A program made the translations under genes and the position numbers. Shown piece after piece: positions 5,304-39,848 of a DNA stretch of 39,848 nucleotides; the stretch's first letter is position 1, and each line of letters starts with the position of its first letter. Below the pieces are notes generated by a model, which was given only the letters and a program-made list of their open reading frames with translations, was not told the DNA's origin and searched no databases. The DNA comes from a virus: IMG/VR virus record IMGVR_UViG_3300022908_000069, positions 1-39,848 of that record. One strand, 5' to 3'.

Positions 5304-5304
<1 letters not shown>
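3502..5304 (-). CDS. Tail-tip/fibre protein with Ig-like domain
   Basis: 600 residues from the ATG that overlaps the upstream stop as TGATG (5302-5306), a translational coupling that decides the start over a GTG eight codons earlier. The N-terminal part is beta-rich without a recognised domain. Roughly residues 275-385 form a putative Ig-like domain of the kind common in phage tails (begins GLTGTLPDGTVGTPY). A heptaglycine hinge follows, then a second beta-rich domain to the C-terminus. This is the last gene of the late operon, the usual place for host-range proteins. Its stop lies inside the end of the convergent HEPN-like gene. Role in receptor binding is inferred from position and composition. 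Confidence 0.65.
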
Positions 5305-6315
<1,011 letters not shown>

Positions 6316-34255: not shown

Positions 34256-34540
34256 ATGAACGGGGAATTGGCTTTCCTGCAGGGACGCGTCGACGCTCTG
34301 GAAACGCTTTGCTTGGCGCTCGCGAAGACGATGCGCAATCAGGAAGTGCTGAAGACGGTGCTTGGTTCGACGTGGCAGGCGATGTATCGAGAGATGCTTG
34401 CGAACAAATCGAGCGATCAACACCTAGCCGGGGCGATGGCGATGGAGCGGAAGATGATCGAGACGATTGGCAGCTTTTCCCTTGGGAAGACGCCGCCACT
34501 GTGGGATGTGATAGGACCCGATCAAGAACCGTCGGCGTGA
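34256..34540 (+). CDS. Small + strand protein of unknown function opposite the early operon
   Basis: 94 residues from the ATG at 34256, with GGAG 8 nt upstream; an in-frame TTG four codons earlier overlaps that ribosome site and is rejected. The sequence (MNGELAFLQGRVDALETLCL) is helical for most of its length, with a short coiled coil at 3-30. The end is Pro-rich. It lies antisense within the gap between Cro-like and CII-like genes, so its transcription would oppose the lytic leftward transcript. Unknown family. Confidence 0.6.
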   Translation: MNGELAFLQGRVDALETLCLALAKTMRNQEVLKTVLGSTWQAMYREMLANKSSDQHLAGAMAMERKMIETIGSFSLGKTPPLWDVIGPDQEPSA

Positions 34541-34653
34541 TACCAATATCGACCGCGACACGAATTCTGTCGGCACGCGAGAGGAAGCGAACCATCGCCG
34601 GAATCGGAGCGTCTGGAAGTGAAGTAGATGGCATGGACGCCACGATGTCGGAC

Positions 34654-34887
34654 CTAGTCGCGGACATGGGAGTAAGGCGCCTTACTATTTGCTTGCGGCG
34701 ATGGCGGCTTGAGATTTGGCATGCCATGGAGCTTCACCGCCGCATCGCCTCGGGGCGCGTAGGTTCGTCCTTGCTTGATGTCCGACACCGCTGATGGAGA
34801 CACACCGATGTGTCGCCCGATCGCAGTTAGCGACCAGCCTTTCGATTCGAGCTGTGCGATGCGCTCACGCGCCCAAGATTTGGCCAT
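34654..34887 (-). CDS. Cro-like repressor
   Basis: 77 residues from the ATG at 34887. A compact helix-turn-helix is visible: WSLTAIGRHIGVSPSAVSDI at about 18-37, followed by KQGRTYAPRGDAA, the arrangement of Cro/CI-type DNA-binding domains. It is divergent from the CI-like gene, with the operators between them. The predicted start of transcription from the promoter at 34894-34923 falls on or next to the ATG, so the mRNA may be leaderless, consistent with the absence of a normally spaced ribosome site. In the Cro paradigm it shuts off CI synthesis in the lytic cycle. Confidence 0.8.
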   Translation of the reverse strand: MAKSWARERIAQLESKGWSLTAIGRHIGVSPSAVSDIKQGRTYAPRGDAAVKLHGMPNLKPPSPQANSKAPYSHVRD

Positions 34888-34893
34888 CACTCC

Positions 34894-34923
34894 ATTCTAT
34901 GGAATACCATAGGTACGCGTCAA
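34894..34923 (-). promoter_or_regulatory. Leftward early promoter for the Cro-like gene
   Basis: Minus strand -35 TTGACG (34923-34918), 18-nt spacer, -10 TAGAAT (34899-34894); each differs from consensus at one position. The operator 34897-34912 lies between and across the -10, so repressor binding would block polymerase. The expected +1 is at about 34887, the Cro-like ATG. Confidence 0.65.
34897..34912. promoter_or_regulatory. Repressor operator, immunity region site 1
   Basis: Perfect 16-bp palindrome CTATGG-AATA-CCATAG between the Cro-like and CI-like genes. The same arms with a 4-nt spacer recur at 35929-35944. Confidence 0.75.
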
Positions 34924-34936
34924 TGGCATCCCATAA
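34921..34936. promoter_or_regulatory. Repressor operator, immunity region site 2
   Basis: CAATGG-CATC-CCATAA, an imperfect copy of the site-1 palindrome with centre 24 bp away (just over two helical turns), overlapping the -35 of the leftward promoter. Suited to cooperative binding of repressor dimers. Confidence 0.6.
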
Positions 34937-34958
34937 CGCAATTCAAGAACAATAGCCC

Positions 34959-35606
34959 ATGGACATCGGAACCAGAATCCGCGAACGCCGCGAGGCACTT
35001 GACCTATCCCGAGGCGACTTGGCCAAGCGAGCGCGCATGCCCTATGCGACGCTCGCCGGCTTGGAGAACGGGGATCAGAAGAATTCACTGCACCTGCCAG
35101 AGATCGCGAAAGTCCTGTGGTGCAATCTCGATTGGCTGGTAACCGGACTTGGGCCGATCGAATATGGGGACGAAGATGACGCGTTCGTCAACGTGGCAGG
35201 GGCCAGCCTGCCAGTGAGCTCGGGCGGAGGAACCGAAGACGATCCAAACGCTGAGGCCGGTCGTTTGAAATTTCGGCGCGAGAGCCTGATTGGTAAGGAG
35301 CTCGATGTCAGGCGCCTACGGGTCTACTACAGTCGCGCAGATTCGATGGAGCCCGCGATCAACGACGGGTCGGCAGTGATGTACGACACATCGAAAAAAA
35401 AGCCAGAAGACGACACAGTTTTTGTAGTCTGGTACGAGAACAGACTGTTCGTGAAGCGGCTCCGGGTACCTACACGTGATGGGGATATATTCATTGAGTC
35501 CGACAATAAAGTCGGGAAGTGGCGCAAGCTCATCGCGGTCACGCCAGGCGACAATTTTATGATCGAGGGGAAAGTCGTATGGCTCGCAAACTGGTTTCAA
35601 GTCTGA
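34959..35606 (+). CDS. CI-like repressor (HTH plus S24 peptidase)
   Basis: 215 residues. The N-terminal HTH (about 5-62) contains LSRGDLAKRARMPYATLAGLE. The C-terminal S24 domain has Ser129 (in RADSMEPAI) and Lys166 (in RLFVKRLR) as catalytic dyad. Candidate Ala-Gly cleavage bonds are 80-81 and 100-101. Maintains lysogeny by binding the palindromic operators and is destroyed by RecA-stimulated self-cleavage on DNA damage (family knowledge). No clear ribosome site precedes the ATG, so translation may be weak. Its 3' end overlaps the next gene by 28 nt. Both operator pairs in the region are its predicted targets. Confidence 0.9.
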   Translation: MDIGTRIRERREALDLSRGDLAKRARMPYATLAGLENGDQKNSLHLPEIAKVLWCNLDWLVTGLGPIEYGDEDDAFVNVAGASLPVSSGGGTEDDPNAEAGRLKFRRESLIGKELDVRRLRVYYSRADSMEPAINDGSAVMYDTSKKKPEDDTVFVVWYENRLFVKRLRVPTRDGDIFIESDNKVGKWRKLIAVTPGDNFMIEGKVVWLANWFQV

Positions 35607-35899
35607 CCCTCAGCGCGTGCCTCGCGCTACCACTTGCGGCAGCCGCCGCACGTGCCAGCGGGCTGCGTGATGTGCTAGCCGCGCACTCCGCGGAGACCTT
35701 CACGATTGTCGAAGATGGAGGGACAGAGTTCGCTGGCAGCGCGCAGATTGGTAGCGACGCCCTCTGCGTTTCGCGCGTTGTAGTTCAACGGCCGACGGAT
35801 AAACAGACCTCTGTCACCCCTTGCATCCCCTACTCGGCCATTCGAACAACTGCGTCAGGAACCGACAGGCCAGGCGTCACAATAACGCTCATCCGCTAG
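35579..35899 (+). CDS. Secreted small protein co-transcribed with the repressor
   Basis: 106 residues starting inside the 3' end of the CI-like gene with GAGGGG about 9 nt upstream. The first 27 residues are a signal peptide (MARK, then hydrophobic core, then ARASG) with likely cleavage after Ala26 or Ser27; an LSAC motif at 11-14 could alternatively act as a lipobox. The mature part is about 80 residues with cysteines at 63 and 82, which may form a disulphide, and a beta-rich pattern. As it shares the repressor's transcript it should be made in the lysogen, so superinfection exclusion or another lysogenic conversion function is the leading guess. No homologue recognised. Confidence 0.7.
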   Translation: MARKLVSSLTLSACLALPLAAAAARASGLRDVLAAHSAETFTIVEDGGTEFAGSAQIGSDALCVSRVVVQRPTDKQTSVTPCIPYSAIRTTASGTDRPGVTITLIR

Positions 35900-35905
35900 A
35901 CGAAA

Positions 35906-35921
35906 TTATGGAATTCCGTTG
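35906..35921. promoter_or_regulatory. Repressor operator, rightward promoter site 1
   Basis: TTATGG-AATT-CCGTTG, an imperfect palindrome with the same left arm and spacing as the immunity operators. It overlaps the -35 of the rightward promoter; centre 23 bp from the perfect site. Confidence 0.5.
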
Positions 35922-35947
35922 ACGAGTTCTATGGAATCCCATAGGAT
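35919..35947 (+). promoter_or_regulatory. Rightward early promoter with overlapping operators
   Basis: -35 TTGACG (35919-35924), 17-nt spacer, -10 TAGGAT (35942-35947). The perfect operator palindrome is centred in the spacer. Mirrors the architecture of the leftward promoter, including the identical -35. Drives the gene at 35986 and probably the int-side operon. Confidence 0.6.
35929..35944. promoter_or_regulatory. Repressor operator, rightward promoter site 2
   Basis: Perfect palindrome CTATGG-AATC-CCATAG, identical in both arms to the immunity-region site 34897-34912. It lies about 1 kb away from that site and occupies the promoter spacer, so the CI-like protein should repress this promoter too. 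Confidence 0.75.
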
Positions 35948-35985
35948 GCTCTCCCATGGCGCCATGTTGGCGCTTGGAGGCAACC

Positions 35986-36375
35986 ATGCATTCGTCGCTC
36001 AGCGTTCGCCATTCGGACGAACGCGATCACTCTGTACAGCAAGACGCCGTAAGGATTCCGTGGCAGCGCAAGGTTGAGCGCGTCCGACTGATGCTGATCG
36101 TCGGGCCGCTCGATCTGACCGCAGCACAGATCGGCGAACGAGTCGGCATCAATCCGTCCAACCGCATCGAGATGCATCGGCTGCACGCGATGCTGGCCGC
36201 GCGCGAACTATCTCCGGGCACGTCGTGGGACGGTGTCGAGCGCCGTCGCGAACTGTCGCCGGAACCGAACTGGAAGACGGAGTTCCTGGTGTGCGTCCTG
36301 TTCGCCGTGGGATTGTTCGCCTTCGGCATCATCGCGCCGCACCTGCCAGCGCTCGGCGCTTGGGTGGCACCGTGA
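35986..36375 (+). CDS. Membrane-anchored HTH-like protein, first rightward early gene
   Basis: 129 residues from the ATG at 35986, which has GGAGG 6 nt upstream; an in-frame ATG at 35956 lies too near the promoter start and lacks a ribosome site. Residues 42-75 (LDLTAAQIGERVGIN onwards) look like a winged or simple helix-turn-helix. A single strong transmembrane helix follows at 99-117. The combination of a cytoplasmic DNA-binding-like part with a C-terminal membrane anchor is unusual for an early phage protein. First gene behind the second CI operator pair, so expected only on induction. No named family recognised. Confidence 0.65.
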   Translation: MHSSLSVRHSDERDHSVQQDAVRIPWQRKVERVRLMLIVGPLDLTAAQIGERVGINPSNRIEMHRLHAMLAARELSPGTSWDGVERRRELSPEPNWKTEFLVCVLFAVGLFAFGIIAPHLPALGAWVAP

Positions 36376-36389
36376 GCGAAGCCTTTCTG

Positions 36390-36863
36390 TCACGCGATCA
36401 TTCGCATCAAACGGGATCGAAGCGGCTCTGCCTTGGTGAAATCCAGCCTGCCGTTGCTGCGCAGGTTATCGTTGTATGCAGGCAAACGCAGGCCTTCGAC
36501 CTCGTCGTCGACCGTGCCGTCCAAGCGAGCGAGCGATTCCTCTATCTCGTCCAAAGCCATCTTCGGCGCACGTACCAGCAGATCCGAAAAAGCAACGCGC
36601 CACATCTGGTGCTTCGCTCCTTTCTCGGCCCAACCGCCAACAATATCGGCAGCGCTCGCGACCGCCACGACGATGCCGCACGCGGTGAGGGTGAACGGCA
36701 TCCGCTGCAGGGCGCCGACAAGGGCGCCACTTCCCGCGACCAGACTCGCGACTGCGGCAATCCAACGCAACCGTGCGTAGTACCGGCAGCTCAGTTGGTG
36801 CAGACGGATGTTGTATCGCACATCGAGGATGGCCTCGTAACTCGTGCGGTCGTAGTGCTGCAT
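36390..36863 (-). CDS. Two-helix membrane protein, SLATT-like, probable lysogenic-conversion gene
   Basis: 157 residues with AGGAG 7 nt before the ATG. N-terminal helix (LDVRYNIRLHQLSCRYYARL), then two transmembrane helices at about 34-52 and 57-77, then a long cytoplasmic helical domain (EKGAKHQMWRVAFSDLLVRA to DDEVEGLRL). This order resembles SLATT-type membrane proteins, which occur with effectors in defence and exclusion systems; assignment is by architecture, not verified. It is transcribed against the early operon around it, together with the tiny proline-rich ORF 10 nt upstream, from a plausible own promoter. This is typical of genes expressed from a prophage. The effector, if any, is not seen beside it. 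Confidence 0.65.
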   Translation of the reverse strand: MQHYDRTSYEAILDVRYNIRLHQLSCRYYARLRWIAAVASLVAGSGALVGALQRMPFTLTACGIVVAVASAADIVGGWAEKGAKHQMWRVAFSDLLVRAPKMALDEIEESLARLDGTVDDEVEGLRLPAYNDNLRSNGRLDFTKAEPLRSRLMRMIA

Positions 36864-38750: not shown

Positions 38751-39848
38751 ATGATGGGGCGGGTCAGATCGAGCAGTCGGAAGGGTTGGCCGGAGAATCT
38801 GTATCCCAACAGGGCGGGGTACAAATACCGGCACCCTGTGTCGCGCAAAGAAACGTGGATGGGCACCGATCGAGCGAAAGCGTTCGCCGCCGCGCGTCGG
38901 CTGAATTCGCTTCTGATGCCGAGCAATGACCTCGTCGCGCGCGTCGTGACTCAAGACGAGACGGTGGCAGATGCGATCCGCGTGTTCAAGGCCGAGGACA
39001 TGCCCGGCCGGAACTGGGCGCCGAAGACGGCTGAACTATACGGCAGCATCCTGTCTCGCATGGAGAAGGCGATCGGCACCCGCGAACTGCCGGCGCTGAC
39101 TGTTCGCGACTGCGCCACCTTCGTGCGCGAAGTCACCGACTCGCCGCGCGCGCGCCAGCAGTTTCGGCTCGTGCTCACCTGGGTGCTCGCCTGCGCGGTC
39201 GAGGAAGGTTGGATCGAGACGAACCCTGCCCTGCAGACGCGTAAGGCGAACTATGAACGCCAGCGCGAACGCCTGACGCATGCTATCTACAAGGCGATCT
39301 GGACCGAGGCCGAGCCTTGGCTGCGCAACGCGATGGATCTCAGTCTGTTGACGCTGCTGCGGCGCGACGACGTCGTGTCACAGAAATTCACAGACGCGCA
39401 CGACGGCGCGCTGTGGGTCGTTCCAGGCAAGACCGAGGACAGCACCGGTATACGCTTGCGCATCGCGGCCACCGGCGAACTCGGCGCGCTGATAGCGCGC
39501 TGCCGCGACGACATCGCGTCGCCCTACCTCGTGCACCGGTTGCCGGAAAAGGCCCGGCCGACGGGGAAGCGTGCGAAGGCGCGCGTGCACCATACGCAGG
39601 TTCTTCCGGAGCAACTTTCGCGCGCATTTGCCGAGGCGCGCGTGCGCGCTGGGATCGTCAGCGACAGCCCCCCGACCTTCCACGAAATACGGAGCTTGGG
39701 CGGCGCTCTGTTGCGCGACGCGGGCTGGTCGCTCGCCCAGGTGCAGGCCCTGATGGGCCACGCCAGCGAGAGCATGACGACTCACTACATGGAAGGCCAT
39801 GAGGCGCCTTGGAGCGAGGTCACCACCGGCATCAAGCTCACCCGATAG
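38751..39848 (+). CDS. int: Tyrosine integrase
   Basis: 365 residues from ATG 38751 (a second ATG follows directly). The N-terminus (1-65) resembles lambda-type arm-binding domains, with GYKYRHPVSRKETWMGTD; a core-binding domain spans about 66-165. The catalytic residues are all visible: Arg204 (in LLRRDD), Lys227 (in VPGKTED), His311 and Arg314 (in HEIR), His337 (in MGHAS) and Tyr346 (in THYMEG). Intact. Integrates and excises the phage at its att site. The stop is the last base of the window, so the usual att location just beyond the gene cannot be seen. Confidence 0.96.
   Translation: MMGRVRSSSRKGWPENLYPNRAGYKYRHPVSRKETWMGTDRAKAFAAARRLNSLLMPSNDLVARVVTQDETVADAIRVFKAEDMPGRNWAPKTAELYGSILSRMEKAIGTRELPALTVRDCATFVREVTDSPRARQQFRLVLTWVLACAVEEGWIETNPALQTRKANYERQRERLTHAIYKAIWTEAEPWLRNAMDLSLLTLLRRDDVVSQKFTDAHDGALWVVPGKTEDSTGIRLRIAATGELGALIARCRDDIASPYLVHRLPEKARPTGKRAKARVHHTQVLPEQLSRAFAEARVRAGIVSDSPPTFHEIRSLGGALLRDAGWSLAQVQALMGHASESMTTHYMEGHEAPWSEVTTGIKLTR

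Follow-up and report, generated by a model that had tools for sequence, protein, structure and literature searches.

The immunity region

The window (the whole stretch analysed, 39,848 nt of virus record IMGVR_UViG_3300022908_000069) contains a CI-like repressor gene, followed on the same strand by a short ORF with a predicted export signal (Table 1). The two genes overlap by 28 nt, and the ATG of the ORF lies in the +2 frame relative to cI. Profile searches matched the upstream gene to HTH_3 (5e-07), Peptidase_S24 (2.7e-08) and PHROG 4 'transcriptional repressor' (1e-31). Judged by these matches, it is a genuine CI-type repressor of the HTH and S24 kind.

A 16-bp palindrome (CTATGGAATNCCATAG) was found in four copies (≤3 mismatches) around these two genes and nowhere else in the window; 8 strand-matches were observed vs 0.21 expected. 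The copies form two pairs of 16-bp operators (CTATGGNATNCCATAG), which enclose cI and the exported ORF. The oR pair is situated between cI and a divergent Cro-like HTH gene, the oL pair just 3' of the exported ORF, and CI is predicted to bind all four candidate operators. Only two sigma-70-like sites were present in positions 34500-36500, one within each operator pair and both directed outward. The slot between the cI stop codon and oL comprises 302 bp, with the exported ORF on the cI strand.

The leftward arm leads to cro and the replication genes and the rightward arm to small genes and the integrase at its end, as in the pL-to-int order of lambda. The first gene of the rightward arm had no family match in profile searches (Pfam, NCBIfam). 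A gene at 36390-36863 (minus strand), reversed with respect to its neighbours in this arm, matched PHROG 11791 (unknown function) at 3.8e-19. Rfam gave no match in the window.

The sequence thus has same-type operators on both sides of cI, outward promoters overlapping these operators, a Cro-like gene divergent from cI, and same-strand cargo that overlaps cI and lies between it and oL. A lambda-type immunity region with the exported ORF in the rexAB position is well supported by this layout. The first-pass annotation had put the ORF on the repressor transcript. Its regulatory placement was borne out and strengthened: two operator/promoter pairs enclose cI and the ORF, which puts the latter in the rex position of lambda, and most of the related slots described below also open with an ORF starting less than about 60 nt from the cI stop codon. 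Sharing of the repressor transcript is predicted from the overlap and the layout.

Further features were seen elsewhere in the window. Positions 1-1928 encode a UmuD-like S24 protein and then a UmuC-type polymerase, a phage-borne SOS mutagenesis pair at the left end. An ORF in the tail region (5304-5933, minus strand) contains a long collagen-like GPTGATG repeat. As the record starts exactly at an ATG (1) and stops exactly at the integrase stop codon (39848), it looks like a trimmed provirus without attachment sites.

Table 1. Features of the immunity region and the rightward arm (positions in the window)
Feature	Position	Strand	Basis and remarks
Cro-like HTH gene, divergent from cI	34654..34890	-	PHROG 6223 'transcriptional repressor' 4.6e-13
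Outward pR-like promoter TTGACG-18-TAGAAT inside oR pair	34894..34923	-	Consensus match; same position and phase in related loci
Operator oR-a CTATGGAATACCATAG	34897..34912	.	Palindrome match
Operator oR-b CAATGGCATCCCATAA	34921..34936	.	Palindrome match; 24 bp from oR-a
CI-like repressor, HTH + S24 peptidase, conserved Ser129/Lys166 dyad	34959..35606	+	Profile matches and alignment with 10 relatives
GAGGGG ribosome-binding site of exported gene, inside cI	35565..35570	+	8 nt 5' of ATG; sequence and SD score
Exported-protein gene (rex-slot cargo)	35579..35899	+	106 aa; translation MARKLVSSLTLSACLALPLAAAAARASGLRDVLAAHSAETFTIVEDGGTEFAGSAQIGSDALCVSRVVVQRPTDKQTSVTPCIPYSAIRTTASGTDRPGVTITLIR
Predicted signal peptide, residues 1-26	35579..35656	+	MARK / LVSSLTLSACLALPLAAAAA / ARA↓S; crude pattern predictor and read from sequence
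Predicted mature domain, 80 aa, Cys63 and Cys82	35657..35896	+	Low-confidence model: one helix, five strands
Operator oL-a TTATGGAATTCCGTTG	35906..35921	.	Palindrome match
Outward pL-like promoter TTGACG-17-TAGGAT inside oL pair	35919..35947	+	Consensus match; conserved in relatives
Operator oL-b CTATGGAATCCCATAG	35929..35944	.	Palindrome match; 23 bp from oL-a
First gene of rightward (pL-like) arm, C-terminal hydrophobic segment	35986..36375	+	Start re-read; GGAGG at 35976-35980
Tyrosine integrase, end of rightward arm	38751..39848	+	Phage_integrase 3e-15, Arm-DNA-bind_1 2.8e-07

The predicted exported-protein gene

According to the first-pass annotation, the gene starts within the 3' end of the CI-like gene, has its own GAGGGG site and encodes a signal peptide and a mature domain with a Cys pair. 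The start and the ribosome-binding site were confirmed on reading the sequence. The N-terminus of the ORF fits a Sec signal by pattern: a basic n-region (MARK), an apolar h-region (residues 5-24) and a signal peptidase I type site (A-R-A↓S) after residue 26. Export of the product is well predicted by this pattern. Both cysteines of the mature domain are present.

A third cysteine, Cys14, lies inside the hydrophobic stretch within a lipobox-like LSAC (residues 11-14). The protein might therefore be a membrane-anchored lipoprotein processed at Cys14 rather than a soluble periplasmic protein, which would leave its function unchanged. LSAC fits a lipobox, and lipoproteins predominate among the exported cargo of the slot in relatives. 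However, the hydrophobic stretch runs on about ten residues past Cys14 to residue 24 and ends in the better type I site, and nine residues would make a short h-region. We consider processing at Cys14 unlikely.

We also weighed whether the ORF might be a degenerating or accidental reading frame, situated between cI and the oL promoter, that gives no functional product. Its length is weak evidence for a gene, since an ORF of ≥90 aa alone occurred in 17% of dinucleotide shuffles of the slot, and its codon statistics are weak as well: the true frame scored -7.3 nats, which is not positive but is the best of the six frames. Moreover, no collection searched contained a homolog. The combination of an ORF of ≥90 codons with an export signal and an SD sequence, on the other hand, was rare, with 0.05% of 6000 dinucleotide shuffles of the slot, and was found in none of the 70 spurious antisense ORFs of the window. 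Relatives also carry genes at the same place with a similar start offset. A frame without a functional product is improbable.

Homology and fold searches

No homolog of the exported protein was found in viral_contigs, genome_contigs, phages or plasmids, nor in 398 genomes of the Luteibacter order or 43 related phage records. The earlier statement that no family could be recognised held, as searches of Pfam, PHROGs, NCBIfam and PADLOC yielded no profile match; the protein was not placed with RexA/RexB, BstA, SieA, SieB or Ltp.

AlphaFold2 models made without homologs had a pLDDT of 44 for the full length and 48 for the mature domain. The top PDB matches of the mature-domain model were nearly all Hfq/Sm/LSm proteins, none of them significant (best E 0.34). 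The likeness to the Sm/Hfq-type small beta-barrel concerns the fold only: the low-confidence model shares with it a helix and five strands, at a match that is not significant. The full-length model had no Sm-like match, BLASTP against Hfq gave no match, and neither a significant fold match nor a profile match to Sm/Hfq was obtained. An Sm-like barrel is a weak lead for the mature domain. YgdI/YgdR (DUF903) is an exported Sm-like family. It was absent from 61 genomes of the order and hence could not be used as a bridge to the Sm-like fold.

Related loci with the same switch

Single-sequence scans of viral_contigs with the repressor and with DnaB gave no matches. As the repressor is too diverged to be found by short peptides, we scanned directly for paired operators. 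Among the viral records, 36 had the strict pattern, and the relaxed pattern gave 57 stretches. The scan of genome_contigs yielded 27 stretches, with the repressor present in those of Stenotrophomonas, Pseudoxanthomonas, Dyella and Luteibacter. We dropped pairs spaced by 21 or 28 bp, as well as many genome_contigs matches from unrelated phyla; all were without the repressor. A homologous repressor was carried by 42 sequences (window included).

The window repressor was 38-46% identical to ten aligned relatives, the closest being that of locus L104 (46%). In all 28 distinct loci with both operator pairs (window included), a divergent Cro-like gene was found at the oR side. Outward TTGAC-type promoters were at a constant position in both operator pairs of the related loci. 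Other repressors of the family in the same bacterial order had no such operator pairs. The named hosts of the relatives are Lysobacterales (Luteibacter, Dyella, Stenotrophomonas, Pseudoxanthomonas), and because these relatives bear the repressor, we infer that the host of the window phage is also a member of this order. A scan of viral_contigs with the portal protein brought up relatives of the window's structural genes, most of them without its immunity region.

Six loci (L090, L092, L101, L112, L139, L162) have repressors with the HTH and the operators of the window but a different C-terminal half, which has no S24 peptidase region. In these loci, operators of the window type may therefore be under the control of repressors that escape cleavage during the SOS response.

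Cargo of the slot in relatives

The slot from the cI stop codon to oL ranged from 243 to 2715 bp in related loci, and its cargo varied from phage to phage. The slot of L108 encodes AbiGi (PADLOC 3e-56). Two further kinds of cargo bear PDC labels, which denote candidate defence systems: HipA_2 with DUF3037 (PDC-M66A/B) in L119, with homologous genes in L134, and DUF6978/DUF1828 (PDC-M24) in L174, a weak to moderate match with only E = 0.01 for the first gene. The HipA_2 and DUF3037 pair was directly behind cI in the immunity slots of L119, L134 and L169.

Lipoprotein-type families made up 12 of 37 in the slot vs 4 of 313 in the flanks after clustering by homology (odds ratio 37, P = 4e-10), as called by a crude N-terminal predictor and with flanking genes being those on the fetched stretches only. 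Before clustering, the crude uniform N-terminal rule gave 18 of 49 slot genes vs 3 of 420 flanking genes. By the same rule, 22 of 34 distinct slots had one or more genes of export or membrane type. Some of the slot lipoprotein genes lie on the opposite strand and require a separate promoter. The exported gene of the window was left out of the enrichment count, as its weak codon bias fails the gene filter. Two further cases were recognised by eye: a 67-aa protein with two TM segments in the slot of L104, whose repressor is closest to that of the window, and a minus-strand lipoprotein in the slot of L096.

The cargo is mixed, and for several genes no connection with phage defence is visible. Families without a stated defence role include MASE1 proteins and lipoproteins of the PDZ-domain and DUF2846-like kinds. 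A lipoprotein of 142-160 aa (MRHxWIL..AC, weak DUF2846) recurs in the slots of L093, L102, L116, L125, L141 and L143, often as the last slot gene before oL.

Proposed function

The gene is a new orphan example of a known cargo type. Our main reading is that the ORF is lysogeny-expressed, Sec-exported cargo in a rex-equivalent slot, with superinfection exclusion as its most likely role; we give this a probability of about 0.5. An exclusion function is suggested by location: the slot in relatives holds AbiGi, candidate defence pairs, and many lipoproteins or membrane proteins. Location and company make lysogeny-expressed protection against other phages, with the envelope as site of action, the best guess.

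In a lysogen, CI would bind the two operator pairs flanking cI and the exported ORF and shut off both outward early promoters while cI itself is transcribed. The exported ORF would be carried on the cI transcript and translated from a separate ribosome site inside the 3' end of cI. Sec would export the protein, probably with cleavage after A26, and place a small mature domain, perhaps disulfide-bonded (C63-C82), in the periplasm. There, it would most likely block adsorption or DNA entry of competing phages.

The main rival is a lysogenic conversion of another kind, in which the exported protein would affect the host envelope, tolerance of stress or behaviour between cells, with no action on incoming phages. 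A lysogeny-expressed position suits any conversion gene, and the PDZ-domain, DUF2846-like and MASE1 cargo agrees with such a role. Yet AbiGi and the candidate defence pairs also populate the slot, and rexAB and bstA hold the same site in lambdoid phages (PMC8585504). A non-defence role is less probable than exclusion.

A bolder proposal would be a long shot: that a widespread group of Lysobacterales phages uses the slot as a dedicated, fast-exchanged reservoir of envelope proteins that exclude rival phages, and that the window gene belongs to a new class, encoding a soluble, Sec-exported, Sm-like barrel that stops phage entry in the periplasm.

The operator-defined slot rich in envelope proteins is a more useful result than the orphan gene itself. 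As the sequence suffices to delimit it, from one operator pair to the other, the cargo series of this phage group can be listed and its genes screened individually in lysogens. Many of its cargo genes encode uncharacterised exported proteins, and repressor-adjacent prophage cargo is a productive source of phage-defence genes. The envelope proteins in the slot point to cell-surface competition as a main selective force on these prophages.

Comparison with known systems

Ltp, SieA, HK97 gp15, Glo, Fc02 olg1 and BstA/RexAB are precedents, and none is a detectable homolog of the window protein. Ltp, SieA and HK97 gp15 are prophage proteins that act from the envelope to stop DNA entry (PMC3952083, PMC10883804). 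Ltp of Streptococcus thermophilus phage TP-J34 is exported and encoded in the lysogeny module beside the repressor, and its gene is transcribed in the prophage (PMC3952083). Ltp is a lipoprotein, acts against DNA injection and belongs to a Gram-positive host, whereas the window protein has no similarity to it and more likely carries a type I signal. P22 SieA and HK97 gp15 are likewise prophage-expressed (PMC10883804). SieA is an integral protein of the inner membrane, as gp15 is predicted to be; the window protein is similar to neither.

Glo of Vibrio phage K139 is described as a soluble periplasmic exclusion protein (PMC3952083). Like the window protein, it is small, exported, prophage-encoded and by prediction a soluble protein of the periplasm. 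When the phage collection, in which K139-type phages should be present, was searched by tblastn with the window protein, no match appeared at E up to 1. In Fc02, the small gene olg1 serves exclusion and lies on the repressor transcript of the lysogen (PMC9936078).

RexA, RexB and BstA differ from the window protein in that they are not small Sec-exported proteins, have no sequence similarity to it and belong with other operators and hosts. The likeness is in the position. BstA and RexAB occupy the post-cI site in lambdoid phages, and the interval from cI to N is known as a hotspot of mosaicism (PMC8585504). As in the window, this cargo lies directly 3' of cI between the early promoter/operator regions, is exchangeable among phages and is, like the window ORF, presumably expressed from the repressor promoter.
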